DNA from: Bacteroidota bacterium
Lineage (GTDB): Bacteria; Bacteroidota; Bacteroidia; Chitinophagales; Chitinophagaceae
DNA length: 64,000 bases
Assembly (NCBI GenBank): GCA_016868775.1
Contig: VGFT01000005.1
Coordinates: 62,001-126,000 of the forward strand
Reading direction: 5' to 3'
A program made the position numbers and the translations under genes. Positions 48,851 through 49,280 of this stretch are shown in pieces. Position 1 is the stretch's first letter. Each line of letters starts with the position of its first letter. A model generated the notes under the pieces. That model made no database searches. It worked only from the letters and a program-made list of their open reading frames with translations, and was not told where the DNA came from.

Positions 48851-48877
48851 GTATGGCTTCGGTCACCCTACCTTTTA

Positions 48878-48903
48878 ATACGGGCGGGTAAAAATAGTAA
48901 CCT
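48878..48903 (-). promoter_or_regulatory. Putative ECF-type promoter for the sigma gene
   Basis: Minus strand AGGTTAC-N15-GTAT, preceded by CGGGTA; 28 nt from the sigma ATG. Confidence 0.6.
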
Positions 48904-48932
48904 TACCCGGCTCAAAAAAAATCACGGGTATT

Positions 48933-48958
48933 AGGTTACCTTTTCCTGTTTTCAGTAT
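48933..48958 (+). promoter_or_regulatory. Putative ECF-type promoter for the repeat lipoprotein gene
   Basis: Plus strand AGGTTAC-N15-GTAT, preceded by CGGGTATT; same motif and spacing as the opposite promoter. Confidence 0.6.
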
Positions 48959-48999
48959 ATATTCGCGAAATATTTCACAAAAACCCAAAAAATCAACAC

Positions 49000-49215: not shown

Positions 49216-49243
49216 GGCCGTTCAACTTGAACGGCCTTTTTTT
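49216..49243 (+). terminator. Intrinsic terminator after the lipoprotein gene
   Basis: GGCCGTTC-AACTT-GAACGGCC followed by TTTTTTT. Confidence 0.9.
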
Positions 49244-49280
49244 ATTTATTGGTAAGGCCGGCCTTAACGGCTTCCATATT

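Follow-up and report, generated by a model that had tools for sequence, protein, structure and literature searches.

The -35 element read by an ECF sigma factor is usually a GGAAC-type box; at the locus described here it is predicted to be GGGTTAC, which sets it apart from the GGAAC-type element of most ECF sigma factors. The locus resembles the RpoE-RseA-DegS system of E. coli in having a promoter that is probably autoregulated, a sigma gene adjoining that of a membrane partner, a periplasmic domain with a DegS-type fold and, by inference, envelope-related targets. However, the anti-sigma factor RseA and the protease DegS of E. coli are separate proteins (PMC8103513), while cytoplasmic helices, a transmembrane (TM) helix and a protease occur here in one polypeptide, and E. 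coli DegS has a PDZ sensor domain that is missing from the protease of this locus. In Flavobacterium psychrophilum SM6, a member of the same phylum, ECF promoters have been inferred, one of them upstream of an ECF sigma/anti-sigma operon (PMC9723704), but these carry a CGT box in the -10 element, and genes for type IX secretion are among their targets; the text of that paper does not contain GTTAC. The Das1/Dma1 pair of Bacteroides thetaiotaomicron likewise consists of a Bacteroidota ECF sigma factor and a membrane anti-sigma factor and concerns envelope biology, although its anti-sigma factor is described as dual membrane-spanning (PMC12596196, PMC13088901), whereas the model of the present partner has a single TM helix together with a protease domain. 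Across the phylum, only 6% of ECF sigma factors adjoin a recognised class I anti-sigma factor (PMC7406223).

We found no paper describing this sigma factor, the motif or the fusion in the open-licence literature, outside which most subscription journals lie. The type of arrangement is known; it is made distinctive most of all by the partner with its protease, but also by the sequence of the promoter, by a two-way layout that is conserved and by a small regulon that recurs. The promoter is of the ordinary ECF kind; what is unusual is the putative regulator fused to a protease.

The window (the whole 64-kb stretch of DNA that was analysed) comes from a genome of 2.03 Mb in 10 contigs, whose group belongs to Chitinophagaceae as judged by its named relatives. 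Judged from sequence comparison, the locus very probably comprises a divergent promoter pair read by the adjacent ECF sigma factor, an autoregulated operon, and a lipoprotein belonging to the regulon, with the sigma factor held at the membrane by a putative anti-sigma factor. The features are listed in Table 1. Region 2 of the sigma factor matches Pfam Sigma70_r2 with 29 bits (gathering threshold 24), and the NCBIfam model TIGR02937 (sigma70-ECF) scores 61.9 bits against a cut-off of 42.9. Region 4 has no separate Pfam match; the TIGR02937 match runs over residues 35-174 and takes in the conserved C-terminal block. The NCBIfam subfamily models scored far under their cut-offs with this protein. 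The protease gene starts 7 nt past the sigma stop codon, and on the other side a DEAD-box helicase gene is the next after the terminator-like hairpin. Short lipoproteins with the same start as the one in the window were found downstream of the plus-strand motif in the genus set.

Table 1. Positions in the window of the divergent promoters, the genes they face and nearby elements.
Feature	Position	Strand	Remarks
Putative anti-sigma factor and periplasmic DegS-like serine protease gene, 366 aa	47200..48300	-	Trypsin_2, 90.5 bits
ECF-type sigma gene, 180 aa	48308..48850	-	Pfam Sigma70_r2, NCBIfam TIGR02937
Predicted sigma operon promoter	48875..48903	-	-35 AGGTTAC 48903-48897, -10 GTATTAA 48881-48875; equivalents at 80/80 family loci
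Predicted lipoprotein promoter	48933..48961	+	-35 AGGTTAC 48933-48939, -10 GTATATA 48955-48961; equivalents at 77/80 family loci
Palindrome GAAATATTTC	48967..48976		Sits at the expected lipoprotein transcription start
Small repeat lipoprotein gene, 62 aa	49000..49188	+	Translation with signal peptide, VAC|E lipobox-like site and KKEAAADTT repeats
Terminator-like hairpin, then T run	49216..49244	+	3' of the lipoprotein gene

The initial annotation had reported AGGTTAC-N15-GTAT at 48933-48958 on the plus strand and at 48903-48878 on the minus strand, coordinates that are exact to the base. It had also described both copies as preceded by CGGGTA and their spacers as unrelated. The hexamer is indeed present upstream of both, but it lies 2 nt farther from the core on the plus strand than on the minus strand and is not conserved in relatives; the prefix is therefore a coincidence, and it was ruled out as a component of the motif. 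The spacers are unrelated to one another, yet each is partly conserved between species, with TATTTTTA retained on the sigma side and CTTTT on the lipoprotein side. Shuffled sequences gave an expectation of 0.01 occurrences of the fixed pattern per 64 kb, and in 350 of 2000 dinucleotide shuffles of the 149-bp gap (17%) some shared 7-N(12-18)-4 motif appeared on both strands. At that rate, and with a pattern picked post hoc, the window by itself is weak proof, and comparative evidence is needed.

Such evidence came from 80 loci across Chitinophagaceae that encode an orthologue of the sigma factor; among the genera included are Niabella, Niastella, Flavihumibacter, Terrimonas, Lacibacter, Sediminibacterium and Ferruginibacter. 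On the sigma side, GGGTTAC-N15/16-GTATTAA was found in strict form at 77 of these loci and at all 80 when one change in the -35 box (GGGTGAC or GGGTCAC) was allowed, 49-60 nt 5' of the sigma start codon. The lipoprotein-side motif, in the opposite orientation, was present at 77 of the 80 loci, and in the genus set its -10 box lies about 40 nt from the start codon. Column information rises to two peaks with near-invariant cores, GGGTTAC and GTATTAA (GTATWAA in the lipoprotein-side sites), which are separated by 15 nt, or by 16 nt in 11 sites of the family set. Outside the boxes, the start of the spacer is T-rich and partly conserved, the remaining columns carry low information and the flanks drift. 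Within the genus, sigma orthologues of 58-85% identity were found in most of the genomes searched, nearly all of their loci having both divergent motifs. As the gap from one -35 box to the other varies from 6 to 155 nt in the genus set with each box pair intact, the two sites appear to act as separate units. A protease gene stands beside the sigma gene at 80 of 80 family loci. Among deep-branching family members, the motif is degraded in genome G066 and was undetected in G076, which counts against our preferred explanation. Genome G001, whose assembly shows neither the sigma gene nor the motif, was dropped as independent support because its contig ends within the protease gene (an assembly gap), and the sigma gene of G012 is missing for a similar reason. 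The palindrome GAAATATTTC is retained at most same-genus loci and degenerate in the rest of the family; it may serve as an operator or as an element of the start region.

In searches of whole genomes, the motif was enriched over controls, it tracked the sigma orthologues, and its off-locus sites stood upstream of recurring genes. Across 42 same-genus genomes (122.7 Mb), GGTTAC-N15-GTATWWA had 125 matches versus 61 for the reversed pattern. Off-locus matches to GGTTAC[CT][TA]T were mostly intergenic and faced genes approximately 45-215 nt downstream; the majority of the other off-locus matches that were checked lay within long open frames. Over 150 genomes of the order, GGGTTACNNTTN11GTATWAA gave 26 matches versus 2 for reversed-pattern controls. 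Genomes encoding a close orthologue of the sigma factor (at least 190 bits) had the strict motif in 14 of 19 cases, and the other genomes in 2 of 131 (Fisher P 7e-14). Since this association is partly the locus itself, the off-locus matches weigh more, and of these there were 11 strict ones in 18 family genomes versus one (G035), or two with G046, in the other 132. In the window's genome, the single exact copy elsewhere (C1:244546) lies inside coding sequence and was rejected as a third site; searches allowing 1-3 mismatches did not bring the motif above background beyond the locus.

The protein families encoded downstream of recurring off-locus sites were: a 96-aa single-domain protein matching AMPK1_CBM and CBM_48 above gathering; a protein of about 200 aa with a weaker CBM48-like start; a lytic transglycosylase (SLT); and small secreted proteins or lipoproteins. 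By inference, these point to envelope- or glycan-related functions of the regulon. Several CBM48 genes in the genus have no detectable motif, however, and this counts against the preferred explanation. A search of the window's genome for the 96-aa CBM48 gene came up empty, and the motif does not recur there above background, so that the detectable regulon is the sigma locus alone. With the sigma operon and one lipoprotein, this small genome provides a natural minimal case. In the larger relatives, genes for the free-standing 96-aa CBM48/AMPK-CBM-like protein repeatedly carry the motif (L068-L083, L231-L246).

The proposal of the initial annotation, that the adjacent ECF sigma factor recognises the boxes as -35/-10 elements, is autoregulated and has the lipoprotein in its regulon, is backed by the family-wide comparison, and the reading of the facing copies as promoters used by the neighbouring sigma factor is well supported. 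On these grounds, the minus-strand site has the character of an autoregulated bipartite promoter of the sigma gene. Could the likeness of the sites instead be due to chance, or to a young intergenic region that has been conserved neutrally? The shuffle rate of 17% would allow this for the window alone, but the boxes are near-invariant across genera while the flanks have diverged, the spread of -35 to -35 gaps is wide, and the same boxes are found again at unrelated loci, which leaves this explanation extremely improbable. Only slightly more credible is that the lipoprotein gene is transcribed by the housekeeping sigma factor from a -33/-7 promoter (TTTG / TAnnTTTG) overlapping the plus-strand motif. 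TAnnTT[TC]G does overlap the -10 box at 14 of the 30 sites in the genus, the window having TATATTCG; however, the exact -7 box is present in just 2 of 30 genus sites and 3 of 84 family sites and in none of the sigma-side sites, and such a promoter leaves GGGTTAC unaccounted for. The full -33/-7 combination was found at none of the genus and family sites. A housekeeping promoter is thus not supported as the explanation, but this clade may have a secondary one that overlaps the motif.

A conserved DNA-binding regulator, or a different ECF sigma factor, might also own the motif, the adjacent sigma gene being merely another of its targets. Larger relatives do encode several ECF sigma factors, and the specificities of such factors can overlap. 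Even so, we regard this as unlikely. The site is asymmetric and faces each gene, with a spacing of 15-16 nt and a near-fixed distance to the start codon, as fits -35 and -10 boxes; no linked DNA-binding regulator is seen between the genes; the motif follows close orthologues of the adjacent sigma factor and their C-terminal block; and the window's genome has only one close homologue. The motif-bearing orthologues have in common, with small changes, the C-terminal block FGYTNADNAKNQKYKC, and distant homologues with different C-termini are mostly without the motif. This correlation is consistent with recognition of the -35 box by sigma region 4. It is thus most probably the adjacent sigma factor, rather than another, that reads the boxes; reading both promoters, it would therefore switch on its own gene and that of the lipoprotein.

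The N-terminal domain of the membrane partner is cytoplasmic according to the positive-inside rule; it is followed by a TM helix (approximately residues 98-120) and a trypsin/HtrA-like domain, and AlphaFold models show three helices, the TM helix and the protease domain in turn. The fold of the protease domain matches DegS without its PDZ domain, HtrA1 and MucD, and the triad H184/D213/S286 is invariant in 47 of 47 members. The partner thus has a membrane-anchored HtrA-type protease domain with a catalytic triad. No PDZ match was obtained in the partner, and the model ends soon after the protease domain; the protein may work like DegS, yet it is not classed as DegS. Pfam and PDB-sequence searches gave nothing usable for the N-terminal domain (zf-HC2 matched 3 of 47 members, with 0.09 as its lowest E value), and naming it from sequence was abandoned. 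Its fold matches all had E >3; anti-sigma domains (RsiW, RslA, MucA and the SigK partner) accounted for 8 of 25 and had the highest probabilities. Operon position, topology and these non-significant fold hints together suggest that the partner is a putative anti-sigma factor. It is possible, and we propose this tentatively, as something short of an even chance, that it is an anti-sigma factor with its own PDZ-less DegS-like protease, which makes the first cut in itself or in a neighbour and so frees the sigma factor, the roles of RseA and DegS being fused.

The model that we favor is that: RNA polymerase with the adjacent ECF sigma factor would bind a -35 box GGGTTAC (AGGTTAC in the window) and a -10 box GTATWWA; the operon of the sigma factor and the membrane protease/anti-sigma factor would be positively autoregulated, with the lipoprotein as a core regulon member; the cytoplasmic helical domain of the membrane protein would retain the sigma factor in resting cells; a signal from the envelope, perceived by the periplasmic DegS-like domain, would lead to release of the sigma factor; and the freed sigma factor would raise expression of its own operon and of an envelope-related set, which would comprise the lipoprotein in the window's genome, joined in larger relatives by CBM48-type proteins and the lytic transglycosylase. 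If the fusion reading is true, the two-way promoter would be the amplifying output of a single-polypeptide stress switch. For a sigma factor that seems not to have been studied, although it is retained throughout a large environmental family, the analysis provides the promoter rule GGGTTAC-N15/16-GTATTAA and a core regulon open to testing. It also indicates that this phylum, with few recognised class I anti-sigma neighbours, may have a sigma regulator that carries its own DegS-like protease.

Two further observations concern the lipoprotein and the distribution of the motif. The C-terminal half of the lipoprotein, a short degenerate KKEAAADTT repeat, varies by species in both length and sequence, with the signal peptide remaining alike. 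In two other families of the order, the motif adjoins sigma homologues of approximately 35-44% identity (G046: L248, L275; G100: L249, L267), so that the system may predate Chitinophagaceae.
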